Origin: Isoetes taiwanensis
Lineage: Eukaryota; Streptophyta; Lycopodiopsida; Isoetales; Isoetaceae
Direction of reading: 5' to 3'
DNA length: 64,000 nucleotides
NCBI GenBank assembly: GCA_021234155.1
Contig: JAJEKV010000036.1
Location: forward strand, 628,777 to 692,776
Position 1 is the first letter of the stretch. Every line of letters starts with the position of its first letter. The position numbers were made by a program, and so were the translations under genes. The notes below the pieces were generated by a model. The model did not search any database. It was not told the origin of the DNA and saw only the letters and a program-made list of their open reading frames with translations. This document shows, piece by piece, positions 6,457 to 64,000 of the stretch.

Positions 6457-8036
6457 TGTGACGCTCCCTGAACATATACGACACTCGGACGTATACATAC
6501 GGGGACTTTCCCCTCCCATGGCAACCAACTCACCATGAGCAGGGCCCTCCGTCTAACTCGGGCCATCTATAAGAAGATGCTCAAGTGAAGGACACAGAGG
6601 GGTCATTCGGCCCACGCCTTCAATGGGGCTCCTACGTCGCGGAAGCGTGAATACAAGGTTAGCACACAGCATAATCATATCATAATTTACCACCACGAGG
6701 GGTGGCACATCCATCCAAGTGACAACAACAAAGAATATGCATTTAATACTAAGGAAAAACACCCGAACCCATGGTTCTACCCCGGCTTAGACTCCAGTGA
6801 GGATCGACTGACGGCTAGGTCTCAAGAGATCAGCAGACCGAATCTTGACATGGCGTTGGCTGGCATAGAACATCAGCTAGGGTTGTCTACTCCATCCGCC
6901 CCTCCTGTGCACACTTTGCAGATGAGTCCAATCATGCTATGGCGTCACTATAGCCTTCCGGACACGTAGACTCAAGGTATCACCCTTCGAGCCTACTACA
7001 GGGTTCATGAAGCCCCGTCCGATGAGGCAGGTCAGGGAAGCGTCCCCTTCCAGAATCACAGTGGTTCCATGGGTGAGCTAGAGAATACGTGCTGCATCAG
7101 CGACCCCCGCATCCGTACCCGACTTACTCACCCTAAATCTACTCAAAGTGCAAGATGCTCCATACGGATCACACCTCTACACCCAGGGAGTGTCAGACCC
7201 ATACCCGGCCCTCTACGTGACCGGTTATCAGGCCTAGCCCACTGTAGGAGTCTCAGGAGCCTTTTATGTTCGTGCAAGACCCCACCCCCGCTTCACCACT
7301 GTGTCCCTTGTTTGGTGCTAAGTCACTCCATAGCATCCACGACTCGGTGGTCTCTTGTACACAGGCCGCATCTAATGGAAATTACCGGGATCAACCTAGG
7401 AGTATACTACTAACATGGCTCAGAGGCCTCTACCCCCCCCTTAATTCCCCCATTTCCAGAGTAATACTATGCAAAGAACTATCAATCCATCCTTTAAGAG
7501 CAAGACCAGAATCAGAAATAAAGAGAACTCACCTTTACAATCAAGGGTTAGTTCCTACAAGTAAAACACAGAGAGAACAGACGAAACAACACAACAAGTG
7601 CCCAACAGGGGCGCTACCCTAGAATTCTCAAGCTATCCTAACCACCCACCTGAGTTCCTGCTGGATCCGTTGTCATTCGGTGCTTCCATCTCCCTGGGAC
7701 TTGGCGCTCAGCTATGGCTACACAGGTAAAGGTGCTTGACAAGGTGGGCGCTCAGCTCCTTCTCCTCTTGGACGATTTTGGGGAGTCAATTAGGGATAGG
7801 GGTCAGGTTGATGGCTCAATTTGGAACTTCCCATGCTGGCCAATCGAATTAGGCCAGGTGGCGCTCCCCTAAATAGCCAATTAGGCCAATTCAATTATCC
7901 TTTAATGTTTAATTTAACATAGCTAATTAAATTCCTTTTAAGTCAATGTCAAAATACCCCATGGTGGCGTACCTTTGTTGGTGACGTGTTAGCATATTAT
8001 TTATACGTGTTCCGTATAAATACATGGAACGTCACA
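6457..8036 (-). repeat. 3' LTR (left copy)
   Basis: 1,580-base LTR beginning tgtgacgctccc and ending gaacgtcaca on the plus strand. By eye it differs from the right LTR by about 20 substitutions, almost all C/T or G/A, plus a short length change in a C/T run near 7431-7442. The changes fit deamination of methylated cytosine. Open frames inside it (7069-7413, 7266-7622) are antisense to the element and are not considered genes. Confidence 0.95.
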
Positions 8037-8527: not shown

Positions 8528-9060
8528 TTACAAGCAATTCGCGGTCGTGTCCACGTTGACAGTACACCATGTCCTAGGGAGCACGAAGGTATCATTCATC
8601 AATCGCATAAAGGTTGCGGGGGCATTAGTTAATCCAAAAGGCATAACAGTAAATTCATAGTGCCCATACCTAGTGCGAAAGGCAGATTTATGGATGTCCT
8701 CCTCCTTAATTCTGATCTGATGATATCCGAAGCGTAAATCAATCTTCGAAAAATGCTTGGCCCCTTGCAACTGGTCCATTAGATCATCTGCCCTAGGCAA
8801 AGCATAGCGATTCTTGATGGTGTGCTTATTGAGCTGCCTATAATCAATACACATCCTCAAGGAGCCATCCTTTTTCTTAACAAAAAGGATAGGAGCGCCA
8901 AAAGGCGAAACACTAGGCCGAATGAAGCCTAGGTTTAATAACTCCTGAAGTTGCTTCTTAAGCTCTGCCAACTCAGGGGGACTCATACGGTACGGGGCCT
9001 TACTGGTAGGCTTAGTACCTGGTTCCAAAGCTATCTCACATTCTACTCCTCTAAAAGGAG
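8528..9060 (-). pseudogene. Reverse transcriptase, N-terminal part only
   Basis: The reading frame covers fingers and first palm motifs of a Ty3/gypsy RT. It shows [15 protein letters not shown], then [20 protein letters not shown], then [33 protein letters not shown] and [18 protein letters not shown]. The first catalytic Asp (in SKIDL) is present. Directly after MRLMND the homology stops and unrelated residues run to a stop at 8528, so the YxDD box with the other two catalytic aspartates is missing. The apparent start is a TTG; homology actually extends upstream to about 9060. There it is separated from the protease frame by an in-frame TAG (9136-9138) and a one-base shift. It cannot encode an active polymerase. 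Confidence 0.92.
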
Positions 9061-9135
9061 GAAGCTTGGAAAAAGATCGCTAAACTCTCGGAGAAGATTG
9101 GCAATCCCTTCTGGCAAGGTATCAACTACTTGCTT

Positions 9136-9912
9136 CTACTTGGCATCTGACTCAATGGAGGCAAGTCTAATAATGCAAAGCAACTTATCTTTACGTATAG
9201 CCTTATCTAACTGCCTGATGGTGATAGACTGCATAATGAGGTTTAAGGAGTCATCTTTTATAGTTACTCGGGCTCCGTTAGTGGCGTCGAAGGTAACTTC
9301 CTGTTTCTCGCAGTCTATATTGGCTTTTGCAGATGCCAAGAATTCCATACCAACAATCAGATCATATTTGCCAATATCCATTATCTCGGCACCCAAGGCA
9401 ACTGGTGCACCTGGCAACTGCATCTTAAGGTTAATACGACGGCCATGAGTGTGTATGATCTTACCACTGGCCAAAGTGACAGGCTTCGGTCGGGATCTCA
9501 AAGTTTCAAGCCGCAATACCTGGGCCATTCTAGGAGAAGCAAAATTATGTGTACTACCCGTATCCATCAGAATTATAAAAGGTTTGCTGTCTACTTGACC
9601 TATGGTGGAAATAACGGCAGGCTGACTTTCAGCATTGCCGGTTTCAATGGCTGCAAGGATATGGGACTCACCGTGAATGTATTCGGGAGCCTCCTCCTCG
9701 ACAGGTAGTGTCGACTCGAGATCGTCCCAATCGAGGTCGGCCATGGCCAGCTGTGCAGTCTGTGTGACATAAGGGCAGTTCTGCATGAAATGCCCGGGCC
9801 GCATACACCTGTAACATGCCTTATCACGGCGGAGCTGTTCTCGAGCCTCTTTGGGAATAGACTGTAAGAGGTTCTGAACTTCCTTACCGACATTGTTCGG
9901 TTTGTCGGACAT
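9136..9912 (-). pseudogene. Gag zinc knuckle plus retropepsin-like aspartic protease
   Basis: 258 codons from an ATG at 9912. Residues 33-46 (CYRCMRPGHFMQNC) form a CX2CX4HX4C zinc knuckle, the nucleocapsid RNA-binding motif. Further on, FIILMDTGSTHNFAS contains the DTGS active site of a retropepsin, which dimerises to cleave Gag-Pol. A C-terminal glycine-rich strand (YDLIVGMEFLA) fits the family. The frame overlaps the end of the gag frame by 29 bases in a different register, so gag and pol are joined only by a frameshift. The frame ends at TAG (9136-9138), after which the same frame stays open toward RT. That stop and the later frameshift are best read as decay, although programmed recoding cannot be excluded. 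Confidence 0.88.
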
Positions 9913-10696
9913 GTTGAAGGTGACTTGGCGAACGGGGTTTGTAAGGTGTGGACGGGCGTGGCTGCGAGTAAGGGGCAGGACGCGGGTACTGGTTTCTTGG
10001 TGTGTCCTCCTCGAGGCTCAATGCCTTAGCCTCAGCCTCTGCAACTGATTTCGGGTCTATGGCCTTCACCATTCGTTTAATTGATGGGGCCAACCCTTCA
10101 ATATAGCCCTCCACTGCCCTCTTTTCATTCATTCCTGGTACATACAGCCTCAAGCGCATGAATTCATCAGTGTAGGCCTGAACTGTCATATCCTTCTGCT
10201 CTAACCTATAAAAGGTCTGGATTTGTTGGCATTTGTGCGCACGAGGCACATAATGCGACTTAAAAGCTTTTGCAAACTTTTTGAACTTGCACCTACTTCT
10301 ATCCAGATGCTTGGCTCTGGCATAGCCCTTCCACCAAATACGGGCAGCTCCTGTAAGGTTTGTGGTGGCAACCTTCCCGGTATCCTTTTCTGTCATACCG
10401 TACCAGGACTCTGCATTCAGTCCGCCTCTAGATTTCCCATCGAATTGGGCCAGTTTCCTATTCTTCCATATGCTAGTTATGGCCGTATCAACCGTCTTAC
10501 GGTACTCCTTGTCCCGTCGCCTTGCATGGTCACCGGATGATACCGACGACTCAGAGGACACAGAGGTGGCTGATTGTGAGGAGGTGGCACTATCCCTAGA
10601 GGAACTCTGACGACGTTTAGAATGGTGCCTCCTTTGTGCAGGCACGGGGCCTAGTTCAGGTGCAAATGGCTGCTGTGAGGGTGGACTTGGCGGCAA
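9884..10696 (-). pseudogene. Gag (capsid region), broken N-terminus
   Basis: 270 codons with a Ty3/gypsy retrotransposon gag (UBN2/Retrotrans_gag-like) core: GAARIWWKGY ... FKSHYVP ... FYRLEQKDMTVQAYTDEFMRL, then VEGYIEGLAPSIKRMV. A Ser/Arg-rich stretch precedes it and a Pro/Arg/Ser-rich stretch follows it. The displayed first codon is TTG, and the same frame continues upstream through an in-frame TAG (10730-10732) to about 10900. That upstream part encodes PEQELMLMKRQLVELQTYV, a typical Gag N-terminal helix. The TAG therefore truncates Gag. A candidate 3' splice site (pyrimidine-rich run ending TATAG) lies near 10863 on the minus strand. Gag would form the virus-like particle. Confidence 0.88.
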
Positions 10697-11128
10697 CGGA
10701 GGTAACTCCGGTCCATCCTCCTGTACATGCTACGGTGGGTTGGCATTCAACACATAAGTTTGTAACTCGACTAATTGCCTCTTCATCAACATAAGTTCCT
10801 GCTCAGGTGTTAGTCGACTGGCATTCGAGGGTGTCTGCCAGGCGGCATTGCGTGCACCGTCTATATTGAGTATAAAAAGGTATAAGCAGAATTACAGTGA
10901 CATGAAGTCTCACAAAGAATGTCATTTCGAATAGTATTTAGAGAGAGAGTAAATAGAAGAGTACGATAGAAAAGGTCTTTATTATAAATGAAACAGTTGT
11001 TACATCAGAGATCATTACATTGGAGGCAGTTACAAAACTTAAGGTATATAATACAAAGGTAGGCACTTTACATTGAGCAATTTTTCAACTCACACATAAC
11101 ATAGAAAACAAAACTGAGGGGACCGGGC
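10697..11128 (-). other. Spacer between accessory frame and gag
   Basis: Holds the interrupted Gag N-terminus (10730-10900) and about 230 AT-rich bases without a usable frame. On the minus strand a run ctttttatactcaatatag ends near 10862 and looks like a splice acceptor ahead of gag. If used, splicing would remove the accessory-ORF region from a gag message. Confidence 0.4.
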
Positions 11129-11620
11129 CTAGGGGTTCGCAAATGGGTACAAGATAGAGTAGCGAACACTTTCACGTACAACCCTGATTAGCTTGTAACG
11201 CGCCCAGGCCTGGACGATAACAGGTTGGTAGTCTAGCGTTGGGCTAATAATAAGGAGATTAAAGAGCCTCCTTAGTGCATAGAAAATCTGCCACAGGTGA
11301 TCGTTGGCATCCTCAAAAGCTTCGTGCCTTGTCATGTCCCAATAGTCCCATGTTCGACGAAGAGTCTGCTGCAGATCCGCATAAGCACGTTCACGGAGAA
11401 TGTTGATGATTTCCAATCCCTTGGCTGGATCATAAGGCTCTCCCTCTTCCGCAGGGTCCCCCACCTCGTAATCATCACCATCCCGCTCGGGGTACTCCCC
11501 GTACCGTTGGCCATAATCCTGTTCTGGAGGCCCTGGATCGTCCCTTCGGATCTCATTTGTGATCCTTTCCTCAAACTCAACGAGGTCATATTCTGCAAAG
11601 CGGCAAGAATGAGCATACAA
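11129..11620 (-). CDS. Accessory ORF 3, acidic protein of about 163 residues (unknown)
   Basis: Not recognised. The frame is open for 163 codons, with no ATG near its start; the first candidate start is TTG and the frame remains open upstream. Splicing into it is plausible: cttgccgctttgcag occurs about 20 bases inside. The N-terminal half is very acidic and Tyr/Pro/Gly-rich (EEGEPYDPAK, YGEYPERDGDDYEVGD). The C-terminal half looks helical, with Trp, Arg and Leu (LQQTLRRTWDYWDM, LWQIFYALRRLFNLL). It lies in sense orientation between the larger acidic ORF and gag, and the amino-acid composition resembles a real protein more than chance. The opposite-strand frame at 11297-11638 is its shadow. 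Confidence 0.5.
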   Translation of the reverse strand: MYAHSCRFAEYDLVEFEERITNEIRRDDPGPPEQDYGQRYGEYPERDGDDYEVGDPAEEGEPYDPAKGLEIINILRERAYADLQQTLRRTWDYWDMTRHEAFEDANDHLWQIFYALRRLFNLLIISPTLDYQPVIVQAWARYKLIRVVRESVRYSILYPFANP

Positions 11621-11810
11621 TATGGAACAATTTCTTAGACTTGAAACTCGAATAGATACAAGGAAGTATCATGGATAAGACTAATTTAATTGTATTCACT
11701 GATATGATAATCATAATTCATAAGAAAGGCACATCCATTATAGAATGGCTAATGAATTGCCAGGTCAAATTTTACAACTATACGCAATACAAAATGCGTA
11801 ATACAATTGT

Positions 11811-12164: not shown

Positions 12165-13211
12165 TTATAGGAAGAAGCGAGTAAGGTGATTCCCCAGTAG
12201 CTTCCCTTGCGGGGTCTCCGACGTGGCAACTTCCTTATCCAAGTCCATAGGGACTTCTTCTTCCTGGAGTTCCTGCTGCTCTTCCTTCAAATGGCCAGGA
12301 TTATGGTATATATCTTCTCCCTCCTCATCCGAACCGGAGGGAACTTCGACCATGTTAATGTTTGGGACATGAGGCCCCATAGCTGTAAAAGCATCCGGCG
12401 AGGGCTGAGATGGCGGATCCTGCATCACGAGTTCCCGAAGCCATAGCAAAGTTTCGGCCGGCTCTATGGTCTCCTGGTGGAATTGGAGCAGCTGCTGCAC
12501 CTCCTGGGGCAGTTCAATAGGAGCGAAGTCGATGAAGTCATCCATACAGTACTCCGCTAACTCATAGAGTACATGGTCCTTGTGCCGGCGCTTAAACCCG
12601 GCCACCATGTGATAGGTCCAGATGATATCATCCAAGAGAAGATATTCTTGCCCTTGGTGATACACAACTGGAAGGGCGTCTAGCCCTGACAAGCATGCAG
12701 CTTGTTCCCGATGTGGTGGCATCTCCTCTGCCAACTGCTTCCAACGGGTGAAGTCACCCATACCTATATGTTCATCGTCTTCCTCCTCGGAAGACTCAGG
12801 AAGTTTGGCTTTCTCTGCCGGCAATGTCTCATCCTCAACGTACTGATCCATGAGGATGGCTAGGGCAAAGGCAACTTCAAGATATTGTCGCCCCTGGTGC
12901 TGCACAACTGGCAGGTGCTTGCCCCATCTAAGTTTACCCTTTAGCACATCATATGCGTGGGTGTCACCTCCTAGCATATCCCGAACTACCTCCCGTTCTA
13001 GATACAACTGGGGGGGTTCCCCAAGAGGAATACACAGAGGAAGCATCTCCTCTGTGTAAAACTCTAGGAATCCAGCATAATCTGGGTGCCGCTGCATATT
13101 AGTGATGAGATCAAGGCGCTGACAGAGAAAGGGCCATAACAGGTCGAAGGGCACTTGCGGATCACAATGCTCTCCATCCTGGTACCATGCAAGTAGGTCG
13201 GTGGCAGCCAT
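12165..13211 (-). CDS. Accessory ORF 2, acidic protein of 348 residues with internal repeat (unknown)
   Basis: Not recognised as a known family. I start it at the ATG 13211 (MAATDLLAWYQ...) because it has good context (CGCCCATGG) and sits just downstream of a pyrimidine-rich tract ending CAG. An internal duplication is visible: LPVVQHQGRQYLEVAFALAI (about residues 100-119) and LPVVYHQGQEYLLLDDIIWT (about 189-208). Each copy is followed by an amphipathic stretch. Acidic tracts occur at about 145-153 (PESSEEEDDE) and in the C-terminal third (SGSDEEGEDIY, EEQQELQEEEVPMDLDKE). It ends in TAA, after which the frame stays open. It lies directly downstream of the H3-fold ORF. Long acidic tracts are common in histone chaperones, so a histone-handling role is an attractive guess but is only inference. 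Confidence 0.65.
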   Translation of the reverse strand: MAATDLLAWYQDGEHCDPQVPFDLLWPFLCQRLDLITNMQRHPDYAGFLEFYTEEMLPLCIPLGEPPQLYLEREVVRDMLGGDTHAYDVLKGKLRWGKHLPVVQHQGRQYLEVAFALAILMDQYVEDETLPAEKAKLPESSEEEDDEHIGMGDFTRWKQLAEEMPPHREQAACLSGLDALPVVYHQGQEYLLLDDIIWTYHMVAGFKRRHKDHVLYELAEYCMDDFIDFAPIELPQEVQQLLQFHQETIEPAETLLWLRELVMQDPPSQPSPDAFTAMGPHVPNINMVEVPSGSDEEGEDIYHNPGHLKEEQQELQEEEVPMDLDKEVATSETPQGKLLGNHLTRFFL

Positions 13212-13396
13212 GGGCGCTGGAAGGGAGGAGGAAGGAAGAGAAACAGATATGAACAAATGAAATGAAACTTTGAAGATCCTTTTTAGCCCTTTTATTTATG
13301 CTGACGTCAGCATTTTCGTACTCAATACAAAACAAAAGGTAAATTTTTATTTAATATCAAAAAAATATTTACAATGCAAATATCCTGCAAAATTTG
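13212..13396 (-). promoter_or_regulatory. AT-rich junction with poly-A signal, TGACGTCA palindrome, TATA-like box and splice-acceptor-like tract
   Basis: On the minus strand, reading from the H3 stop codon, the order is as follows. First comes AATAAA (13346-13351), then a perfect 14-base palindrome tgctgacgtcagca (13299-13312) holding the bZIP core TGACGTCA. A TATA-like CATAAATAAAAG follows immediately. Last is a long pyrimidine tract (tctcttccttcctcctccc) ending TTCCAG five bases before the ATG of accessory ORF 2. The layout could serve as the end of one transcript plus promoter or splice acceptor for the next. It is the only strongly AT-rich stretch between the accessory ORFs. Function is inferred from motif order only. 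Confidence 0.5.
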
Positions 13397-14122
13397 CTAA
13401 GGACGCTCTCCCCGAATCCTGCGGGCGAGGGCTAAATCCTTTGGCATTATGGTGACCCTCTTTGCGTGAATAGCGCAAAGATTGGCATCACCAAAGAGTG
13501 CCACCAGGTAGGCTTCCGCAGCCTCTTGCAGCGCTAGGATAGCAAAAGTCTGGAAGCAGAGGTCGGTTTTAAACTCTTGGGCGATCTCCCGAACCAACCT
13601 TTGAAAGGGGAGCTTCCGTATCAGAAGTTGCGTGGACTTCTGAAACTTACGGATCTCCCGTAAGGCCACGGTACCGGGTCTATACCGGTGGGGCTTCCTT
13701 TGTGGAGCAGGGTTAGGGGGCGGCCCTTTGTGCCCCGGGATCGTCTTGGCCCCTACAACTGGACGGGGCCGAGAGGCATCCACCCGCTCCTGTCTCCGGC
13801 TGGAACTGGCGTTCTTCCCAAAGGCTCCGACAGTCTTCAACTTTTCCTTGTACTGGCTGCCGGACTTTCGGGCTACGGATTTCCTCCGGTGCTTAACGGT
13901 CGTATGCTCCGTTTGGTTTGGACCCTGCCCACTCCCTGTTCCCCCATCGCCCTGCTGATCCGGCTGCTCTTGCCGGGCCTTCTCCTCCTTTTCCTTTTGG
14001 ATCCTTTCCTGCTCCTCCTTGTACTCCCGAGCTCTCCTGAGGTCTTCTTCAATCTCATTGTATCGTCGCTCTACAATGCGGCGAAGGACTTCTGCATGGT
14101 ATCGATCGGGCCGCTGGTTCAT
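13397..14122 (-). CDS. Histone H3-fold protein encoded by the retrotransposon (accessory ORF 1)
   Basis: 241 residues from the ATG at 14122 (a GTG 18 codons upstream is also in frame). Residues 143-241 align without a gap to H3 residues 37-135: [75 protein letters not shown] count about 13 changes from plant H3.3: Y54F, E59Q, D77E, R83C, S86T, Phe at 87, V89I, G102A, E105G, T107A, I124L, Q125A, A135P. Tyr41 and Leu90 are as in plant H3.3. Loop 1 has normal H3 length, unlike CENH3. K56, K79, C110, H113, R116 and D123 are kept. The usual tail is replaced by a charged coiled-coil-like helix (about 8-52), a Gly/Gln/Pro linker, and a basic stretch with ARKS (84-87). A chromatin role is inferred; the fold is clear. 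Confidence 0.93.
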
Positions 14123-15415
14123 ATCAATCTGGATCGTCGTTAAGTAATCCAGTCGATGTCGTGAATCACTCCCCACATGAAGCGGGAGGCTTCATGCCAT
14201 TGATATGGGGAATCTCGATGGCCCTCGCCATCTATAACGGCAACTCCATCTCCAAGGTACCCAGATTCCCTACCTCGAAGCCGCCAGATCGCTCGCCTCC
14301 ACTTCCCTACGGTCATCCTCCCCGCCAAGTTCGAACGCGGTCAGCCTCTTTACTTATATCCTCCTCTTCGATGTGGCCTTCACATTCGGAGGGTAAAATT
14401 TTATTAGCATCATGACCAAGTCGGTTGTTCGGCCATGGTGTAAGGAAGTCAGTTTGAGATTCAGCCTAACCAAAAACGGCTCCGAGTAATGGTAAATTGG
14501 ATAGGGGATCCTATCATTGTTCTCAAACTGTTTACCAACTCGTCCAACAAGATATCAATCAAGGTGGTCGGTGAGCCATGTGCCGGGCGATCAAAGCATA
14601 AATCTCGCTATAGTGAGGGTAGTGGGGTCCACGGTACTCTTGGTGTTGGCCATACCATACTGGGTCAACAGATCGCTGAAAAGGAGGCTACCGGTGGTTA
14701 AGGCGACGATAAGGAAGGCGCTTAGGGTCTGAGAAGGCTGTAGGGATAACCCAAGGTGGACAGGCAAGGTCGGGTCCGGTAGCTATGGCAGACGTCAGCT
14801 CTAGCGGGCGGAGGCGCTTTAAGACAGGGAGAAAGCAAAAAGTTAACGGCCCTTAACCCTAAAAAGTTTTAAAAGTTTGCTTGTTTTTTTTTTTTTTTTA
14901 AACATTATACGACGGGAAATTTGCGCGAAAATACGGTCGGGCGCCGACGGCATTCTACGCTGGCCCCACCGCTGACCGGGTCGATTTAAAAGCAAGCGGC
15001 GCCCGGTTGACTTTCATACCTGAAATTCACGCTGATGGTACGGTCGGCGCCGACCGTGATTCCACGACTCCTCGCCACCCTCAGAATCGATAGAAAGCAA
15101 GCGGCGCCCAAGTTGACTTTCGGGGCCCCTCCGTCGCCATTTTTCGCCAGCGACGACTGTTCTAGGGTATTTTGGGTACGCCCGATCCGATGGAGCCGTT
15201 TCCGCCTTCGTCCAAACTACCTTTAAGAAGTTATAGCCCCTCCAAACTTGGGTCTTCTAGTCGCCCTACTTCTTTAAACCTACAATTTCTTACTTTAACC
15301 TAACACAAAGCCAAACATCACAGAAACTAAGCCCCCACTAGATTAGCCTCCTGCCTAACTAACGAATACGAGTTAGGGTTTGGCCAGTGCTATGATTCCG
15401 GGCAACCGAAATCAC
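14123..15415 (-). other. Retrotransposon leader between primer site and H3 ORF
   Basis: About 1.3 kb of mostly GC-rich sequence with no long sense frame. A 62-codon minus-strand frame (14140-14328) overlaps the start of the H3 frame in another register; it ends in [19 protein letters not shown] and might be an original N-terminus now out of frame. A 16-base T run is at 14884-14899, and a direct repeat lies at 14933-15121. Plus-strand frames in this interval (14489-14732, 15035-15226) are antisense and unconvincing. Confidence 0.5.
14933..15121. repeat. Imperfect direct repeat of about 83 bp in the leader
   Basis: Copies at 14933-15015 and 15040-15121 both begin acggtcgg(g)cgccgac and end gcaagcggcgccc..gttgacttt, with a less conserved middle. 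The 107-base spacing leaves a 24-base linker. Each copy starts with a GC-rich palindrome (ggtcggcgccgacc in copy 2), so the pair may form stem-loops in leader RNA. That could relate to packaging or dimerisation, which is inference. Confidence 0.75.
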
Positions 15416-15428
15416 GGCTCTGATACCA
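15416..15428 (-). promoter_or_regulatory. Primer-binding site for initiator tRNA-Met
   Basis: The minus strand reads TGGTATCAGAGCC one base inside the 5' LTR. This is the classic complement of the plant tRNA-iMet 3' end that primes reverse transcription, as used by Ty1/copia elements and chromovirus-type Ty3/gypsy elements. Confidence 0.95.
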
Positions 15429-15429
15429 C

Positions 15430-17007
15430 TGTGACGCTCCCTGAACATATACGACACTCGAATGTATACATACGGGGACTTTCCCCTCCCATGGCAACCA
15501 ACTCACCATGAGCAGGGCCCTCCGTCTAACTCGGGCCATCTATAAGAAGATGCTCAAGTGAAGGACACAGAGGGGTCATTCGGCCCACGCCTTCAATGGG
15601 GCTCCTACGTCGCGGAAGCGTGAATACAAGGTTAGCACACAGCATAATCATATCATAATTTACCACCACGAGGGGTGGCACATCCATCCAAGTGACAACA
15701 ACAAAGAATATGCATTTAATACTAAGGAAAAACACCCGAACCCATGGTTCTACCCCGGCTTAGACTCCAGTGAGGATCGACTGACGGCTAGGTCTCAAGA
15801 GATCAGCAGACCGAATCTTGACATGGCGTTGGCTGGCATAGAACATCAGCTAGGGTTGTCCACTCCATCCGCCCCTCCCGTGCACACTTTGCAGATGAGT
15901 CCAATCATGCTATGGCGTCACTATAGCCTTCCGGACACGCAGACTCAAGGTATCACCCTTCGAGCCTACTATAGGGTTCATGAAGCCCCGTCCGATGAGG
16001 CAGGTCGGGGAAGCGTCCCCTTCCAGGATCACAGTGGTTCCATGGGTGAGCTAGAGAATACGTGCCGCATCAGCGACCCCCGCATCCGTACCCGACTTAC
16101 TCACCCTAAATCTACTCAAAGTGCAAGATGCTCCATACGGATCACACCTCTACACCCAGGGAGTGTCAGACCCATACCCGGCCCTCTACGTGACCGGCTA
16201 TCAGGCCTAGCCCACTGTAGGAGTCTCAGGAGCCTTTTATGTTCATGCAAGACCCCACCCCCGCTTCACCACTGTGTCCCTTGTTTGGTGCTAAGTCACT
16301 CCATAGCATCCACGACTCAGTGGTCTCTTGTACACAGGCCGCATCTAATGGAAATTACCGGGATCAACCTAGGAGTATACTACTAACATGGCTCAGAGGT
16401 CTCTACCCCCCCTAATTCCCCCATTTCCAGAGTAATACTATGCAAAGAACTATCAATCCATCCTTTAAGAGCAAGACCAGAATCAGAAATAAAGAGAACT
16501 CACCTTTACAATCAAGGGTTAGTTCCTACAAGTAAAACACAGAGAGAACAGACAAAACAACACAACAAGTGCCCAACAGGGGCGCTACCCTAGAATTCTC
16601 AAGCTATCCTAACCACCCACCTGAGTTCCTGCTGGATCCGTTGTCATTCGGTGCTTCCATCTCCCTGGGACTTGGCGCTCAGCTATGGCTACACAGGTAA
16701 AGGTGCTTGGCAAGGTGGGCGCTCATCTCCTTCTCCTCTTGGACGATTTTGGGGAGTCAATTAGGGATAGGGGTCAGGTTGATGGCTCAATTTGGAACTT
16801 CCCATGCTGGCCAATCGAATTAGGCCAGGTGGCGCTCCCCTAAATAGCCAATTAGGCCAATTCAATTATCCTTTAATGTTTAATTTAACATAGCTAATTA
16901 AATCCCTTTTAGGTCAATGTCAAAATACCCCATGGTGGCGTACCTTTGTTGGTGACGTGTCAGCATATTATTTATACGTGTTCCGTATAAATACATAGAA
17001 CGTCACA
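15430..17007 (-). repeat. 5' LTR (right copy)
   Basis: 1,578-base LTR matching the left copy at about 98-99% by eye. As the upstream LTR on the minus strand it should hold the element promoter. I could not fix a TATA box or start site with confidence. The 187-codon plus-strand frame at 15823-16386 runs antisense and corresponds to a shorter frame in the other LTR, where substitutions break it, so it is not annotated as a gene. Confidence 0.95.
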
Positions 17008-17012: not shown

Positions 17013-18573
17013 TACTGACATACAAGCTTTGGGGAATGTACAAGAGCATAGGTACATCCGGACCACCATCAGCTGTGGCAATATCTATAGTACCCTTGAA
17101 CATGTTAAGACAGGACACAGAATAAGAGACATATAATTTAGGTTAATTATGGCAAATTAAGGTTTTGACCAACAAAACAAAGGAATATGGAGCCATTTCA
17201 AATGAGTTGCCTAAGCAATAATACCTTATTTTCATAATTCAACATATCAAGGAAACAATGGACATACTTATTGAACAGGCGATGGATCTGTCACTAAAGA
17301 TGTTAACTGTAGAGATATGAGCTTGCCACCGTAAAAATCTAGCTACAAGTAAAATGCTCTATCAACCTTGAATTCCTAAGGTCCAAATTCCTAAGGTCCT
17401 TGTTTGGGCAGGAATCCTTCCCTTTCATGTTTTTATTGCTTGCATGTTTTGTGCTTTGCACTTTGCTGGCTCAGCTTGTTTAACTATGGAATGAACCTTC
17501 TCATGCTATGGAGATAAAAGAATATGCATTTCTTTATAGGCTATGGTAACGTAACTACTAAGTGGACTTGTGATGTCAACTATATAAACTATTGTACAAA
17601 TTGTTATTCTAACATGAATAATTTAACACCATTAGAGATTACTTTTGAAATTAATCTTTGGAATTCTTATATCTTTGCTTATAATCATTTTATTTTTATC
17701 AGTTTAGCCCCATGTTTATGACTGGACGGCATTTTTACACATGGGTATATTGTAGGGACCTTGACATTGTTGGCAAGGCTGATTTGCTTGGCAATGATTT
17801 GCAAAGAAATTTGCACCCGAAAATTATTGGTCTAGAAAGCATGAGACAACAATAAAAAGTAGTGATTTAATCGTGTCCTTTTGCAAGAACCCAGAAGCAC
17901 ATGAATCGTCAACACCCAAGTAGCCTTACACAAGGTGTTCATCGTTATACAGAGGTGTTCATCATTATGGTAGTCAAGTTCAATAGTTAGACAAATTGTT
18001 CTTAGAATGTTCTAGTTGAGAAATTGACTTTTACTTGTTACATGCAAGGCTTTAAAAGAATACTCAGAATATTGCCTAGCATTTGGGAATGTACCTTCCA
18101 TAGTAAAGTCTCTTGCCAATCAATGCATCACCTGTAGAAACATCCAGTCAAAATCCACCTTTAGAACCATTTAAGAACTTGCTGTTGAAATCCATGATCT
18201 CATAACCAATAGGTTGACACTAACTATTATGTTCACTCCAAGTATGAAGCACCGTGCTATATTCTTCTGAAAGTTCATGAGTAAAAATGGCATGGGAGGA
18301 ATCCAAGGCTTAACAAAGACTGATGTTGGCCAAAAATTTTCAAGACCTATATTTGTTCAATCTATGGCATACCTCGACAAGGGCCAATGTATTTAAATTT
18401 GGTGACAGCGTTGGCTTTATACCTCTGGCAGCAAGTATATCTTCGACAGTCCTGTAAATCAAACACATGCATAGCAATAAGAAATGTATGCAATGTGTAT
18501 AGAAAGAAAAGAACATGTTGCTCTTTGTTTCATTAGCTAGTTACAGTGCGAAAGAAAAATTATTCTACAGGTT
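17013..18573. other. Intergenic or intronic sequence; one unrecognised exon-like block on the minus strand
   Basis: No known gene. On the minus strand 18451 down to 18373 is a 79-base open block flanked by a good acceptor (tttacag) and donor (gtatgcc). It encodes TVEDILAARGIKPTLSPN and a few more residues. It looks like an exon of an unidentified gene, but nothing else supports it. Confidence 0.35.
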
Positions 18574-18696
18574 TTCCAGGGAATAGCAGGTTTGAAGCAG
18601 TTTCTGACATATCCTAGGTATATTCCAGCATATACTTAGAATATGCTGGAAACCCACATGAGCAAGGGTTTGCCCCCTAGGGGCAACCCAAAAACA
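18574..18696 (-). repeat. Hairpin-ended repeat family, copy 1 (inverted)
   Basis: The reverse complement of copies at 18865-19043 and 24079-24254. The family begins TTTTTGGGTTGCCCC with a GC stem closed by GGGGCAAACCC. It continues with CATGTGGGTTT and a self-complementary AT-rich block around ATATGCTGGAATATAC. Copies 1 and 2 face each other 170 bases apart, so the locus can fold into a large stem. Confidence 0.7.
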
Positions 18697-18864: not shown

Positions 18865-19043
18865 TTTTTGGGTTGCCCCTAGGGGGGCAAACCCTCGTTT
18901 ATGTGGGTTTGTGGGATATACTGAGTATATGCTGGAATATACTCAGTATATGTTGATGACTGCTAAAAACCCTTTGTTCCCTGTAAATGCACGGTCAATT
19001 GCGTTGTGGATCAAGGATGTTCTGGACCGGGTAACTGGCAGCT
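18865..19043 (+). repeat. Hairpin-ended repeat family, copy 2
   Basis: Same start and internal palindromes as copy 1 and longer on its 3' side, sharing a second block (gttctggaccgggtaactggcag) with copy 3. No coding potential or target duplication is evident, so the class (SINE-like, MITE or other) is open. Confidence 0.7.
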
Positions 19044-19540: not shown

Positions 19541-22500
19541 TTGAATTTCAGCTTTGGGATTGTCATGGGCGTCCAATATACCAGAGTTCAAAGTATGGCA
19601 ATGCCACTACTTCAGTTTCATGGAGTCCTTTTGGTGACATGTTTGCTCTTGGCTCATATAATTCCTTGCTTCTTTGTGACAAGACAGGGGTTTGTGACGG
19701 CAGATACCAAATGTTATTTAAGTAGACCCTAGCTTTTAAAAGTAAGAAGTTACCTTGTTTGCAGTGGCTCATATCAAGACATCAACATTTAGTTGGTTCT
19801 TTGCTAAAATTAACATGGAGTTTTGATGGGACACAACTGGCTAGAGCAGGGACAAAAAGCTCCATCCCGTTGGCACAATCTGTAGGCAGGTTTGTTAAAA
19901 ATACATGCACGTAAAACTTGCTCCTTAAAGGACTCCTTTGTGATTAAGGACACGACTAATCAGAAATAGAGACATGATACAATATAAAAGAAAGGGCACA
20001 TCACTCAATCTGTATTGTTAACCATCTAGGGACCTGTGTATATTTTCATAGGAATGTAAGGAAGTAGATTGAGCCAAATACATGGCCAACCAGAAAGATG
20101 TATTAGACAAATGGCATAGAACATTATTGGTCATCTTTGCAGCACTGGTCATTCCCCAATTTTAGATTGACAGTGTCAATTGCACTTCGTCACATTGCGA
20201 TGTGAAATGATAAGCATAGAAAAGTTGCAGTATTTCTAGAGATTGTTTTAATATTTGACATGCACAACAGGAAACTGGAATGGTCAAAAGCAAGTGCTAT
20301 TATTGAGGATTCTAATCACATTAAAGTTAATGTAAGTACTATCTTTCTCTTATACGCACACTTAGTTCTATGTGTTTGAAAATGGTTGGTTTCGCTCCCG
20401 AGAATATTTTAACTGGATTGTCGAATTGCCTGGAGTTTCGTGGACCGTGTCATCATTAAAATCAGCTTAGGCTTTGGCTATTTGGTAGTTATTACCACAT
20501 CGGGGTATAGGATAAAAGCAATGAATGCTTCTCGTTTTATTCTTTTCATGGACGGTGCAGTTTGGACAATTTTAACATTATTATTGACATCCTTAACAAT
20601 TGCTATATTTACTCAGCTACAACCGGAAACCGGTGCACATTTTCGAGATGAAAGATACCATTCTTCCGACTAAACAATGTCGCCGTATTTCCTCTTTGTA
20701 GGCTGTTTCACGTGTCTTCATTTGTTTGGTTATGATGGTCGGCAGTTATGCAAACTCTAAACTTCAAGGTGATATTGAAGAGAACAATGTTAAACAATAA
20801 TGCTCTCTTACATACCCAGCAAATAATACAACTGAACGTTTGCATTTATCCGAAAACAAAGCAATGTTATCCTGAATGTTTTCAGCAATCCAACAACACA
20901 AAACCGTAATTGTTACTAAGTAATAAGATATCTTGTTGCATCTTAATGCATGTGTGGCATGAATGCACATCTTTAACTTTTTTTTTTCGTTTTCATTATG
21001 GGGATTACATCCAGAGGCTTTAAATGATAAGAACCTCAAAGATATGTAATGATACAATAGCATTTGTTGATACCTATGACCATAAAGGTAAATGGTATGC
21101 TACGTATTGTCACTATATACTTTAGAGGTTCTAAATCATAATTTTTTTGTTTCAGTTTTGTAACAAGCACAATTTATGAATGACACAAGAGTTTATTTAT
21201 AGAAGTATGTTCTACTGTGCAAATCTGTAGAAATTTAGTAAGTATTGAGAAATGGATCAAACTTTTCGTTTCAGTGGTGCAGTTTATTGATGCAAATAGC
21301 GGAAAGGTCTTCACAAATGCCTTTAGGCACAACTTGGATATAGCAGAGATTGGGCTTAATCAAATGGGAAATTCTACTCTTCGTAAGCTTGCTTTTATTG
21401 ATCACAATCAAGACCTTTATATCATTCTAACTATTGTGAGATCCTGTTTCATAAAATGCAACTTTCCTTTGAGGATAATTTTTTGTTCAGAATAATTTAC
21501 ATCAGGTCATGTATCATAAGAATCTTATATGATTTAAATTTAAGTAGATGAATAATTTTACATACAGCCATCCACATCACCCGAAGTTTGCAATGGACTG
21601 CCACCATGTGGAATTGCCCCGAAAATTTTGAGAAATATGCCTGCTTTTGATTATTGTTATCCTTAAATGTGATCTGTAGGAACTGAGTAGTTTACTGATT
21701 TTTCCCATGGCTTCATATGCATATTACATGCAATAATCCAAGGCAATTGATCCTGAATTATCTACCATTCCGCAAGTCTCTCAGAACCCATCACATTTGT
21801 CAATTGATAAAGTTGATGTTGGAATCTGTGATTTAGGGAGTCATCTTTTGTAAATGGTTTGACACTGTGCTGGGAGTTGGAACGAAATGAAATTATTACT
21901 GTGCCATGAAAGGTATATAGTACAGAGTATGCATGGGCGATGCCATTTTTATAATAAGGTTATGCCAAATTGGAACACATGGCATGTGCATGTACGTCAT
22001 CGTAAAGAGTCAGGCAGTGGAATATTAACATCCATGTTTCTAGGGAAGTTTAACAGGCTTGCTTTTAGAGCTTAAATAGACTCAGTAAGGGCCCATCTCC
22101 ATTAGGCTCTTTTTGGGGCGTTCCTGTGCCACGTGGCAATTCCGACTGCACGATTTTCCGTTCCTATTAGTTTTACAGGAACTGAATTAGGATGACATGG
22201 CACAGAATCCGGCAAAATTTCAGATGCTCCTTCACTCCATCTGAAAAACTGAAGTCGCCCTGGAGTTTGTTGTTTTTCTGAAGCTTTTTGTCTTGTAGCC
22301 AGTCTCCGCCATAGATTTCTGTCTTGTAGCTAGTTTAGCCATCATGATTTTGGTTCTTGCTCCACTTCGAGAGCTCGGAGTACCTATTTTCAATGAAAAT
22401 GGTATTGATTTGGAGGCCTGCGCTTTGCTTACGTGACAAAACCCAGAAACTGGGTTTTTCTGTAATGGGGATCCGCCCTAATGATCAAACTAATCTGTCT

Positions 22501-58568: not shown

Positions 58569-61077
58569 ATGGATTTTAAAGGCAATTACAGCCCTAAACT
58601 CCTTGCCTTCGTCCACGAGTTTGCCCATCTAGGTGACTCTGAGCGCCCGGTTCTGCTTCATCAGTTAAGACTTCTTCAAGAAAATCAAAAAAATTGTCTG
58701 CTCTTTGGTAATTTTTCTAATCTTCTTTCTGACAAGCAGATCATGCATCCTAGAACTCATCATGTTCCAGTTTGGGATAACCTCTCAAAAGATCCTGATA
58801 TTCATGGTCGGCTACCATTTCTTCATCCCTCTACTCAAATTCCTCTGCCATATGGAGTACCAAAAAACTGTCGAGGAGATATTCACGGTGATAATGCTTT
58901 GGATCTTTTGCTTTCTCTTTGGAGGCCCGGAGTTGGTGAAGGGAACAAACAAGCTTTATATCATGGTATTTCTTTAAATATCCCCTTACATTCATTCCAA
59001 GGTGTCAACTCGAAAAGATAAATTTGTTCTTGTCAAGGTTAATAGATGTGGAATTAATCTTGGTAAATTGTGGACCTTCTGCCAAAACCTTCAAAAAGGT
59101 GTTCTTATCAAAGCTATGTATTGGCTAAACTATCCATTCATAATGATTGAATGTGAAACTTCCAGAACAGCAAATTTCCTTCTAAATCGAGGTCATATGA
59201 CCTTTGAAAGCTTTCATATAAGCTTCCTCAAATGGAATCCCAAATTAGACATATCCTCTTTAGATTCTTTTTGTGTATAGCCTCTACCACCTTCTGGGGG
59301 CTTAGTCAATCTCTTTGGAATGAGGATTGCTTCAAATTACTTTTTAACTCTATTGGCACATATATCTCCACTGAATACTCCCCTGAGAGACCTCCTCGAG
59401 CCTTCATTCAAATTGATCTCACTAAACCTGTGCCTACCACATTACCCTTCTCTGATGCTTTTGGACAGAAATCACTCCTATCACTAAGATGGTCGGGTTT
59501 ACCTCCTCTTTGTCAGAACTGTGATTACAGGCATTTGTGGTATGAAAATTGTAAAATATCTTCTACCAAGCAAGCAGATATCATTGAGATTGAAAATCCA
59601 TCAAAGGAATCAAATGTAGCAACCAAAATACAAAATTCTGCTGAAATGATGTCAAACAAGAGCAACATTCCACAAGTTTTACAAGGGCCAACTTCATTGG
59701 AAGATCCAAGTAAAACTAATAATTTTGCTTGGAAAAGAGTGAATGGATCCCAAAGAAGAATTCAGAAAAATAGACTTGAGAAGGATAAGCAAAATAGTTC
59801 ACAAGGGTTGCTTATCTCAGAATTGACATCAAACAGAACTTCTCAAAAAGGTTGGCAGCAATATCAAAATAATTCTGGAATCAAAGTCATCCAAAAATAT
59901 GGTGAATTCAACCATAAAGGCAAGGCTCCTATGGACCAGGCTGCAAGATTAACAGAGGATCTGAATTCTACACTGGATAAAATTATTCAGGATGCTAAAA
60001 ACCTGAATAACTCTAGAATTTCAAGTCACTTGAATCTCAAGCAAAAAAGTAAGGGAGATTCATTACTTAGACAAAGCCATACTTCAATTCATAAAAATAT
60101 GAACACATTGGTTATAAAAGACAAGAAGACCTCGACCTCACTAAGTGATATTTCTACTCCAAAAGCGATTGGTGCGGCATCAATTCATTTTGAGTTTGGA
60201 CACAAGCTACAATGAGAATGACAATGTTAAAAAAGCTGAAAAGGAGGATAAGGTTCTCTGCTACAACCATTTCCAGGTACTTGCAAATAATAATACTAAT
60301 CATGATTCTAGTAATTTACTGAATTCTGAAAATCATGACCATTTGATTGATCATTCTGTTCAACCCTCATCCAACTCACCTGCAGACTTTTCTTCCAAAC
60401 CATCTCCCCTGAATTCCACTATCCAGTTTGAACCCCTTATTAATTTGGACATAAATTTGCCTTCTGAGAACCATGGCTGCCAGTCCATTTCTATAGATGT
60501 TGAGAAGCAGTTGGCTACCCTTCAAGAAGGTATATGGCACATGAATTCAGGTCAATGTTTTACAGCTCAAACTCGAGATCAGGTTGATACAGACCAAATT
60601 AAAGAAATTGAGAAAGAAAAGGATGTGGTACTTGATACACCTGACAGGCAATGTCCTCAAAGTGACAAAGCAGTCCCTCAAAGTCTCAGCCCTGAGATTG
60701 TCTTCAACACTCAAGACATGGAGAAAGATGCCCAACTATCCAGGCAAGTCCCTTTTCATAATAGCTCTAAGAAATGTCTGTTTAATAACCCTACAAATAG
60801 TATGTTTGAGTTCATCCCAGGTGGTATATCTGACAGTGAAGATGAGATTGATTCCAGGAAGGAGAACTTGGAGAATGCTAAATGGGGGGATGATGAGCTG
60901 TTAAGGGATACCTATCTGAACACTAAACCTCCATCTAAACCTCTGTCTATTCTAAAGGACTCTAATACTCCTGCTAATAATACAAGAAGTAGAAAGCAAA
61001 ATCAAGTCTCTAAGAGGGCTAAAAAAAGAAGTGAGTGTGGTCTTCCCTTTTCTCTGATTCTAATTATCTCTTTCTCT
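58569..61077 (+). pseudogene. Plant L1-type LINE ORF1 (DUF4283-like, CCHC), frameshifted
   Basis: Four overlapping frames give one ORF1. They are 58569-59021 (MDFKGNYSPKLLAFVHEFAH...), 59002-59280 (LIKAMYWLNYPFIMIECETS ... FESFHISFLKWNPKLD), 59232-60215, and 60145 onward. The second and third match the DUF4283-type nucleic-acid-binding region of plant LINE ORF1 (L-W-N-E-D-C ... IDLTKPVP). At about 59500, CQNCDYRHLWYENC is a CX2CX3HX5C zinc knuckle. The tail is Ser/Asn/Lys-rich with NHFQVLAN, the usual NRFxxL motif. Frameshifts near 59000, 59275 and 60200 disable it. The last frame runs without a stop into ORF2, so ORF1 and ORF2 are fused in frame. Confidence 0.8.
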
Positions 61078-64000
61078 ATGAGGATAATTAGTTGGAATTT
61101 AAGAGGGATTAAAGGGCCCCTAAAGAGAAGGAGGGCAATTGCTCAACTCAGACAGTATAATGCTGACATTATAATGCTGCAAGAACTGAAGCTCCCCAAA
61201 TTCGAGGCATCTAATCTGGGTGACTGGATCTACCCTGGGGCTTCCTCCATATGGATGGAAGCAAATGGAACTAAAGGTGGAATGTGTATTATCTGGAAAA
61301 ATCTCCATCATATCTCCTTCTGCAATAGCATTTCCAAAATGTGGCAAGCTGTAACTTTCTCATTAAATAACTCAACCTTTGGTGTTATTAATATTTATGC
61401 TTCTACTTGCCCCAAAGATAGAGAAAAGCTCTGGCCTGATCTTAGCTCTTGGATCATTAGCAACTCATCTATAGATTGGATTATGGGAGGGGACTTCAAT
61501 AATACTCCAGCCTGGGACTTGAAATTGGGGAATAAAATAAATATGTCTTTAACTGAAAAAAGGAATTGGGATAATTTTATGGCTGACTCCTCCCTAATTC
61601 ATATTCCATCTTCCACCTCTATTTTCACTTGGTCTAATAAGCAGAAAGATCAAGATAGAGTCTATTGTGCTTTAGATAGATTTTATATCTCCAATCCAAA
61701 TTCAGATTTCTGGGATAATTGCTTTGTAACAAGTGATGAAGGTACATCCATCTCGGATCACCAACCTCAATTTCTCAGTACCAAGCATCTTCTGAATTCT
61801 CCAAGAGATGGTAATATTCCCTTTAAGTTGAATTGCTCTCTGCTGATCTAAAGGTGTCATTCACTCCCATCGTTATCCATATTTCTAATCCAAATCATGC
61901 ACCAGTTTTTGATGTCGTTCATCTTGCCTCTGTTCTTCCTCCTACTCTAGCTTCTATTCCTAATCCCATTATTGGCTTAGACTCTACTTTTTGCTCTACT
62001 CCATCCTTATCTCTAGCGCCTATTCTACATCCACTAGTTCTAATTCCAACTCTGGTTCCTACGTGACCTCCAATTTTTTCTTCTGACTTTGGTCATCCCT
62101 ATATTTCTACTATTGCTCTAGCTCCTCTTTTAACCTGTGCTTCAACAGTTCATGGCTCAGTTCCAACTGTAATGCTACTACCTTAGCTTTCAGCTATGGT
62201 CATAGAAGTGATTTCACCTCTAGGATCTCTTTCCAACTTGAGTATTATTTGCGCTCGTGTTTTTGCTCCACTTACCGTTCTTAATCCAGCTTTTATCAAT
62301 CTTCCTTGTGGAATGCACGTTTCACTAATAAAATCAAGGTAGAAACAAGGCTAGCAAAGCCATAATATCATATCTTTGATCTAGGGGATACCAATTGATA
62401 CAAATCACCTGCAATGTCACAAAGAAACTAAAAAAATCTGATCAGTAGGGAAAAGCTCTATCCATCCAACCGGATTCACTAGGAAGTCATTCCATGAAAC
62501 ACTTCTACCACAAGATTAAAAAATCTAAGGAATGGATTAAGAGTTGGGCTAAAAACAAGCATATGGCTAAAGTGCAAGAGAAGGATAATCTAATGAATAA
62601 AATGAAAGAGATAAGATCTCTGCTCCAGATTGATCCTTTGAACTCTAATCTTCATGTTGGTGAGGAGCTCCTTGAGAGGCATCTGAAAAGTATAGAAGAG
62701 AGAGAAGCCAAATTCTTTGCCATTAAATGCAAGATTAAATATAATAGTGAGCTAGACTATGGCAGCTCAAAATTTTTCTTCAGAGTGGCTAAAAACAGGC
62801 TTTTAAAAAATTCTATAAATCAAGTAAACAATGGCTCTGGCTCTATGCTCACCTCGACCTCTGAGATCAAAAATTTCTTCCATGATAGTTACTCTTCTCT
62901 TTTTAAGAAGAATGAGCTTAATGCAAATGAGATTTTAGCCAAAGATAAATTTCTGGCAGATTTAAATGCAGTATTGCCAAACTCCATTGATAGCATGGAT
63001 GCTTCCTTTATCTCAATCCCCATGAAGATGAGATTTACAAGACTCTGCAGAGTTTCTCTATTAACAAATCTCACGGCCCCACGATGGATTTCCTCCGAAT
63101 TTTTCATAAAATTACGGGAAATTATGAAATTGACATTATTGGTCTTGTGCATGGTTTTGGGCCTCACGGTCACTTGCACTCTTCTATCTCTGCTAGTTTC
63201 ATTACCTTAGTGCCAAAAGTAGATAATCCCACATCTTTTGCTGAATGGAGACCAATATCTTTAACAAATTCTTCCTATAAGCTATGTGCTAAAATAATTG
63301 CCAGCAGAATTCAGGCTTATTTACAGAAAAATATCAGTGTCAATCAATGCGCCTTTCTACCCAAATGATTTATTCTAGATAACTACATCAGTGCAATGGA
63401 AGGTCTCCACTGGAATAAGATATCAAATCAGTCTTGCATTCTTCTAAAATTGGACTTCAAGAGAGCATTTGACACTGTTGATTGGAATTTCATTGACTTG
63501 GCTTTAAACAAAATGGGTTTCCATCCTAAACTCATTACTCTTATTCATGGTCTGAATTCTATGTCCAATTCTGCTATTCTAATAAATGGATCTCCCTCCA
63601 AATTTTTTCCTTTGGCCAAAGGAGTAAGGCAAGGCTGCCCTTTAGCTCCATATATCTTCCTCATTGTGGCTGAGATGCTCACGAGATGTGTAGTCAGTAT
63701 GCAAAATTCTGGATCTTTAATTGGTCTCAAGCTTCCAAATAACTTAGACATGCTCACTATATCTCAATATGCTGATGATACGTTTGCCTTCCTAGATTCC
63801 AATCCTGCCAATGTGAGTAGATTTTTGGATCTCATTAGAAATTTCTCAGCTGCCTCAGGGGTCCACTTAAACCTTGACAAAAGCAAAATCATTGGTGATG
63901 TAGACCATTCTTCCATATGTGGAATTTCTGTTCTAAGTTGCAATCAAGCCTCGAATCTCTTAGGTATGCCTCTCTCTCTAAATCCAAATCTGAGAGGTCT
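61078..64000 (+). pseudogene. Plant L1-type LINE ORF2 (endonuclease and reverse transcriptase), right-truncated by window
   Basis: ORF2 starts at ATG 61078 (MRIISWNLRGIKGPLKRRRA). Endonuclease motifs follow: IIMLQELKL (catalytic Glu), GGMCIIWKN, IMGGDFNNTP, and a final TSISDHQPQF (SDH). After 61851 about 600 bases of foreign low-complexity sequence interrupt it. The linker resumes at 62494 (KIKKSKEWIKSWAKNKHM). RT appears after a frameshift near 63020: LVPKVDNPTSFAEWRPISL, CAFLPK followed by TGA (probably CGA Arg by deamination), LKLDFKRAFDTVDWNFID, GVRQGCPLAPYIF and SQYADDTFAF with the catalytic YADD. It is open from 63369 to the window edge. RNase H and zf-RVT lie beyond. One nonsense, frameshifts and an insertion make it inactive. 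Confidence 0.92.
61852..62470 (+). repeat. Low-complexity insertion inside LINE ORF2
   Basis: Between the end of the endonuclease domain and the linker lies C/T-rich sequence full of ctctagc, cctattc and ctaattcc words with a loose 12-base rhythm. It encodes artificial Leu/Pro/Ser/Ile repeats (61833-62066). A normal LINE has only about 80 bases here, so roughly 500 are foreign or expanded. It resembles, but is not clearly the same as, the 12-bp arrays at 4372 and 38134. Confidence 0.5.

Follow-up and report, generated by a model that had tools for sequence, protein, structure and literature searches.

Silencing of plant transposons works partly through host histone H3 and its marks. The window analysed here, a stretch of 64,000 nucleotides from the genome of Isoetes taiwanensis, contains a retrotransposon in which an open reading frame ends in a histone H3 core. 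The locus raises the question of whether this H3 is a gene of the element or a one-off nested retrocopy, and of what an element might do with an H3 of its own. A sequence-only reading of the window had regarded it as an H3 captured by the element.

The H3-bearing insertion is a 10.55-kb Ty3/gypsy element on the minus strand (Table 1). In sense order it consists of a long terminal repeat (LTR), leader, H3 gene, ORF2, ORF3, gag, protease, truncated reverse transcriptase (RT), and LTR. The H3 frame is therefore sense-oriented and situated between the primer site and gag, where the sequence-only reading had placed it. The primer-binding site is presumably of the tRNA-Met type. The LTRs (1580 and 1578 bp) have 20 mismatches in 1580 positions (K2P 0.0128). 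The element had also been called complete-ended. Its ends are indeed complete (LTRs, target-site duplication, primer site, and polypurine tract), but there is an internal deletion in pol, which breaks off inside RT and picks up again beyond the chromodomain. The last residues of the RT frame match a sequence that is located after the chromodomain in a relative, L048. Pfam scans found no RNase H or integrase in the window copy, and no chromodomain was seen in it. The loss begins in the catalytic region of RT and extends past the chromodomain, so this copy looks non-autonomous.

Table 1 Features of the H3-bearing element in the window
Feature	Position	Strand	Basis or remark
Left target-site duplication CAGAA	6452-6456		read from flanks
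3' LTR (TGTGACG...CGTCACA)	6457-8036	-	98.6% identity to the other LTR
Polypurine tract AAGGAGGGGAGAA	8037-8049	-	adjoins 3' LTR
Reverse transcriptase, cut off at catalytic region	8531-9079	-	RVT_1 6e-21
Zinc knuckle (by eye) and aspartic protease	9139-10017	-	RVP_2 1.5e-13
gag (capsid)	9887-10729	-	Ty3_capsid 2.1e-16
ORF3, acidic	11132-11668	-	no Pfam match
ORF2, acidic, pI 4.4	12165-13211	-	open frame; no database relative
Histone H3 core (H3 37-135) with stop codon	13397-13696	-	Pfam, PDB search, alignment
Open 3' part of H3 gene, 241 codons	13397-14122	-	open frame
Whole H3 gene	13397-14653	-	homology to the 419-codon gene of relative L011; broken upstream of 14191
Primer-binding site GTGGTATCAGAGCC	15416-15429	-	adjoins 5' LTR
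5' LTR	15430-17007	-	LTR pair
Right target-site duplication CAGAA	17008-17012		read from flanks

The H3 frame runs from 14122 to 13397 on the minus strand and closes with a TAG at 13399-13397. Its last 99 residues align with H3 37-135 without gaps. About 86 identities had been counted by eye, and the exact number is 86/99 against plant H3.3, compared with 84/99 against plant H3.1. Each of two intact host H3 genes is identical to the window core at 87/99 positions. Pfam assigns the frame to the core histones (E 3.7e-39), and its top PDB chain is histone H3.3 (E 1.4e-52). The stop codon follows immediately after the last H3 position, where Pro replaces Ala. Of the 42 copies compared below, none but the window copy has C83; E77 is the host state and represents no change. 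A CENH3 identity appears disfavoured by the gap-free match to H3.3, in a comparison that covered H3.1 and H3.3 only.

An open frame of 264 codons has a chance of about 2e-5 at one given place with this composition, before any correction for the number of places. A neutral simulation of the window copy gave weak evidence: the probability of no stop was 0.19, and that of an intact frame with indels taken into account 0.009. The 241-residue part is basic (pI 10.4). Its AlphaFold model is poor, including the histone part (mean pLDDT 46.7), and the best-scored region is a predicted helix at residues 7-51 (pLDDT about 64-74).

A protein search with frame residues 1-150 returned 186 candidates, none at E<=0.01. 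In a search with the H3 part, 8000 proteins were scored, and identity did not exceed 87% among the 120 matches listed; the ten of these that were inspected are all tandem or fused ordinary H3. Since the search covered proteins with a length of roughly 145 aa upwards, the source may still be a divergent host H3 of smaller size. Scans of IMG/VR with the H3 frame, gag, and ORF2 confirmed no relative.

The evidence that decides between an element gene and a single retrocopy comes from the rest of the genome (1,658,258,908 bases, 1110 contigs), which we searched with the 241-residue window protein. There are at least 150 related places: every one of the 150 candidates scored, out of 14,865, matched at 69-100% identity. 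Most of the matches listed cover the whole query, including the 142 residues ahead of H3. No internal stop was seen in 105 of these 150 matches, and 45 have at least one (frameshifts left uncounted); among the best 30 copies 19 are free of stops. At least one open copy, L058, is frame-disturbed internally.

We examined ten insertions drawn from the best 25 matches. ORF2 is next after the H3 gene in all ten, at a distance of about 5 kb in one of them, and a whole or partial 5' LTR is present in nine. The stretches fetched include gag-protease-RT in five cases and no gag in the other five. Two relatives with both LTRs (K2P 0.0246 and 0.0248) have 5-bp target-site duplications of their own, GGAGC in C1033 and GCTGT in C923. 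The neighbourhood is thus conserved in independent insertions, which the sequence-only reading had proposed as a check. A search with gag gave a consistent picture: an H3 place lies 5' of gag at 41 or more of the 138 gag places, the window copy counted, and 38 of the 41 pairs are spaced by 3.0-3.7 kb, while at most 0.12 pairs would be expected by chance within 10 kb. The pairs were matched by eye from the search tables, and 41/138 is a lower bound because the H3 places are known only as the at least 150 matches listed. A one-off nested retrocopy is ruled out by the at least 150 related places together with the ORF2 neighbour in 10/10 insertions.

The LTR pairs L039/L048 and L037/L046 have transition to transversion ratios of 20:18 and 24:15, and that of the window copy is 19:1; the copies seem to have decayed under different mutation spectra.

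The relatives also reveal what kind of element this is. A single frame of L046 encodes RT, RNase H, and Integrase_H2C2; rve reaches 29.7 bits (E 7.8e-7) there, just short of the curated cut-off of 32.6. The chromodomain PF00385 is above the cut-off in L048 and L047 (1.1e-8 and 2e-8), and in relatives it is placed after a Tf2-like SH3 domain. The element is a chromovirus of the Ty3/gypsy group, and its family has H3 and a chromodomain together. The suggestion that the element supplies its own H3 in place of a chromodomain consequently fails, since relatives carry both. Pfam scans detected no hAT domain; an element of the type that carries H3 in fungi is ruled out by this, by the long direct LTRs, and by RT.

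In relatives the H3 gene is about 420 codons long, and the H3 core forms the C-terminal end of its product. The 241 codons had been described as an intact frame, and they are open, but they are merely the 3' part of this longer gene. The upstream part is present in the window copy as well, with homology from 14653, in interrupted form. There are 20 ATGs between the 5' LTR and 14123, six of them before 14653, where the homology to the full gene starts. The leader at 14880-15200 contains an imperfect repeat with GGTCGGCGCCGACC-like palindromes and an A run in the sense strand.

The protein of L011 consists of 320 residues without a known relative followed by the 99-residue H3 core. Likeness of the element tail to H3 residues 1-36 was not above shuffles (P 0.21; 88/200), and neither test supported homology between the two. 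Many copies share the tail motif A-[RH]-K-[ST]. Such an ARKS-like motif could still be open to methylation, although its likeness to the H3 tail does not exceed shuffles. When a profile of six full H3-gene proteins was compared with PDB, the 60 matches listed all hit histone H3 through the H3 part, and thus give no information on the first 300 residues.

For measuring selection we used a set of 42 copies, made up of the 30 best matches, one of which is the window copy, plus 12 from the 120 ranked below them; stop codons were skipped. Selecting copies 1-30 for their similarity to the window protein biases dN downwards. L058 is included in the 42-copy counts and was left out of the maximum likelihood run. 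Averaged over pairs, dN/dS is 0.041 in the H3 core, as against 0.190 in the 142 residues ahead of it. The pooled values with codon bootstrap are 0.047 (0.032-0.066) and 0.205 (0.156-0.273), respectively, and a maximum likelihood codon model for 41 copies gave 0.062 and 0.221. The 12 lower-ranked copies alone yield 0.044 for the core and 0.244 for the preceding part at a mean dS of about 0.90. The H3 core is under strong purifying selection. Many copies, a conserved neighbourhood, and low dN/dS (0.04-0.06 in the core) together identify the H3 as a long-retained element gene, in agreement with the sequence-only reading, and we are almost certain that it is a genuine gene of a multi-copy chromovirus family.

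A search with canonical H3.3 helps to distinguish element and host sequences. Among 150 matches scored of 9,031 candidates, 15 are host-like H3 genes, in one piece and at 97-99% identity. After a gap in E-value from 3.4e-79 to 1.6e-54 there follow 135 matches at 72-87%, many of them at places of the H3-frame search, which we took to be element-like. Two of the 15 host-like genes were used for comparison. They share Tyr41, Glu77, and Leu90 but not the residues at positions 31 and 87.

Eleven non-host residues are near-fixed in the 42 copies: F87, A102, A107, L124, and A125 (42/42 each), P135 (41/42, one gap), T86 (41/42), I89, G105, and Q59 (40/42 each), and F54 (39/42). Of the residues Tyr41, His87, and Leu90 of plant H3.3, Leu90 occurs in 42/42 and Tyr41 in 30/42. 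The two host H3 types differ at residue 87 (His or Ser), and since all 42 copies have Phe there, the route of deposition is uncertain. L060, the most distant copy inspected, retains host Y54 and E59, as if the non-host changes had been acquired stepwise.

Phe41 marks H3.1 of ferns and seed plants. It occurs in 11 of the 42 copies (among them L017, L025, L051, L053, L057, and L060), while both host H3 genes have Tyr41; Phe41 of the element copies is possibly a convergent change. The host state in both genes fits a plant that branched before ferns (PMC5809374).

Silent sites between element H3 and the two host genes are saturated in all 42 copies. In a FastTree tree with two host sequences only, the copies group together in a single clade that excludes the host genes (support 0.905). 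The H3 core is intronless, and so are the two host H3 genes. We infer that it was captured from host H3. The replacements are older than the window insertion because they are common to other copies, and the family has kept the H3 core far longer than the age of this insertion. An argument on H3 age from the base-change spectrum was dropped. In the window the ratio of transitions to transversions is 19:1 in the LTRs and 5:12 in the H3 replacements, or 5:11 against host H3 (Fisher 5.7e-5 and 7.1e-5), but the contrast was lost against the two other LTR pairs of the family (0.23 and 0.07, not significant; three pairs pooled, 0.014).

The conserved neighbour, ORF2, runs on in frame to 11814 past a TAA. 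A protein search with it returned 1807 candidates and no relative, its dN/dS is 0.218 (7 copies, three with stops), and its structural model is unusable (pLDDT 34.8). It has acidic stretches and two LPVV.HQG..YL motifs, a weak internal repeat (P 0.014 by shuffles). As speculation, its protein is possibly a histone chaperone. ORF3-related stretches occur near several of the ten relatives examined, and the likeness between the N-terminal part of the H3 gene and ORF3 is weak (P 0.012). The gap between the H3 gene and ORF2 (13212-13396, minus strand) is AT-rich, with 32% GC, and contains TGACGTCAGCATAAATAAAAGG, a CAG-terminated pyrimidine tract, and CCATGGCTGCC; by eye, its appearance would suit a promoter of ORF2's own or a 3' splice site ahead of ORF2.

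We found no LTR retrotransposon with a core histone in the open-access literature searched, and within that scope the statement that no such family is known stands; fungal hAT elements and viral H3s were found. The main text of the I. taiwanensis genome paper (PMC8566536) does not contain the word "histone". The gene was filed under histones captured by a mobile element or virus, a category already known from fungal DNA transposons and viruses. In Dothideomycetes (Pyrenophora H3L, Pseudocercospora, Cercospora, Sphaerulina) a captured H3 is likewise amplified by a mobile element, and tens or hundreds of copies are reported (PMC3538342, PMC6710886). Pyrenophora H3L fully matches neither H3 nor CenH3 and is described with tail insertions and ESTs (PMC3538342, PMC6710886). 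These carriers are DNA transposons with terminal inverted repeats, and their extra copies are reported as RIP-inactivated in one group, with drift suggested for Pyrenophora. The Isoetes element, unlike them, is an LTR retrotransposon with measured purifying selection, an N-terminal part of about 320 residues, and a chromodomain.

Single H3s of viruses (xenomavirus, Dishui Lake phycodnavirus, sylvanvirus, and others) are reported with folds 73-87% identical to a possible host H3, extended tails in 3/6, and altered residues 87-90, e.g. SAIL or TAIL (PMC9145170). The element H3 has FAIL at 87-90 in most copies, next to the 87/99 host identity of the window copy; the viral genes, however, belong to DNA viruses and not to a multi-copy LTR retrotransposon family. 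The bracovirus histone (CpBV-H4/CvBV-H4) is likewise a parasite-encoded core histone with an extended tail (PMC9145170), and it is reported to enter host nucleosomes and to alter host gene expression (PMC9145170, PMC5423620), but it is an H4 delivered by wasp particles. Plant chromoviruses share the LTRs and gag-PR-RT-RNaseH-IN-chromodomain, with no H3 gene reported in the open-access literature found. An orchid Ty3/gypsy lineage, detected in a screen of 121 angiosperm genomes, similarly keeps an extra host-type domain (PMC9289625). This domain is an enzyme, an m6A demethylase, and the section on the screen names no histone domain (PMC9289625).

Captured H3 now extends to an LTR retrotransposon. 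With its own selected H3 in the family, the substrate of silencing has been turned into an element gene, and the H3 core is naturally separated from the H3 tail. Marking of chromatin, packaging, and altered nucleosomes had been raised as possible roles by the sequence-only reading. The low dN/dS of the core and the four to five times faster change of the preceding part suggest that the protein enters nucleosomes, through contacts with H4, DNA, and chaperones. The element H3 would dimerise with host H4 and enter nucleosomes at or near element copies under active transcription, the replication-independent (H3.3) pathway being the probable route. Nothing recognisable as H3 residues 1-36 is present in the tail, and the usual silencing marks on K9/K27 would therefore be absent from such nucleosomes. 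H3.3-like nucleosomes would oppose DNA methylation, and the element would guard its own transcription. In Arabidopsis, H3.3 deposition at transposons is reported to prevent DNA methylation when DDM1 is absent (PMC10529913); we prefer an anti-silencing role owing to this effect and to the loss of the K9/K27 tail. It counts against this role that the element H3 protein has no known feature to confine it to element DNA; Phe87, the poor AlphaFold model, and the ARKS-like tail motif, which could still be methylated, weigh in the same direction. The whole explanation, from capture through nucleosome entry to anti-silencing, has in our judgement an even chance of being correct, and the mechanism itself, as an H3.3-like nucleosome variant, a slightly smaller one. 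Our first choice is anti-silencing, followed by self-addressed integration, nucleoprotein packaging, and titration.

Nucleosomes with element H3 could instead be landing marks that are read by the integrase chromodomain or by the long N-terminal part and would steer new copies to chosen chromatin. Relatives encode Chromo (PF00385) in the same element, and the tail motif is present in many copies, but it does not exceed shuffles, and we regard such self-addressed integration as rather unlikely. About as doubtful is a private chromatin state built of the H3 core, the 320-residue tail, and host H4, with ORF2 perhaps as a chaperone and the chromodomain as a reader, which would both escape silencing and direct insertions.

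The basic protein might also coat the RNA or cDNA of the element, either within particles or as part of the pre-integration complex, with the H3 fold and host H4 as a DNA-binding scaffold. Its charge, its encoding in the same element as gag, and the predicted N-terminal helix would suit this role. No fusion with gag or pol was seen, however, and DNA binding alone would hardly hold the core at dN/dS 0.04, which makes this role improbable. Titration of host H4 or H3 chaperones with a genome-wide loosening of host chromatin seems more improbable still. A multi-copy gene with a conserved core could act in this way, and there are changes at 124, 125, and 86-89, which we take to be chaperone or dimer surfaces, but the harm to the host would presumably be broad. 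A functionless retrocopy carried along as a passenger is contradicted and has hardly any chance, for although gene capture is common in plant LTR elements (PMC3726574), H3 copies are reported as inactivated in one fungal hAT group (PMC6710886), and stops or a disturbed frame (L058) occur here too, most of the matches listed have no internal stop and dN/dS is far from the value of about 1 required, also in the lower-ranked copies at dS 0.90.

The preferred anti-silencing role and the integration role lead to a question that is testable now, namely whether an element escapes silencing or chooses its insertion sites via nucleosome composition. The locus hints that a parasite of the genome may use a host-derived histone to build or mark chromatin.

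Outside the element, the window contains a 122-bp inverted repeat (18573-18694 and 18866-18987, 75% complementary, spacing 171 bp). An exon like that of IFT80 (intraflagellar transport protein 80; E 6.3e-10) lies at 19552-19692 on the plus strand, 2.5 kb from the element; IFT80 is its best natural match, in one colinear stretch, and two designed WD-repeat proteins score slightly higher. Such an exon points to a host with motile sperm. A frame of a LINE-type endonuclease (Exo_endo_phos, 2e-9) occupies 60145-61851 on the plus strand.
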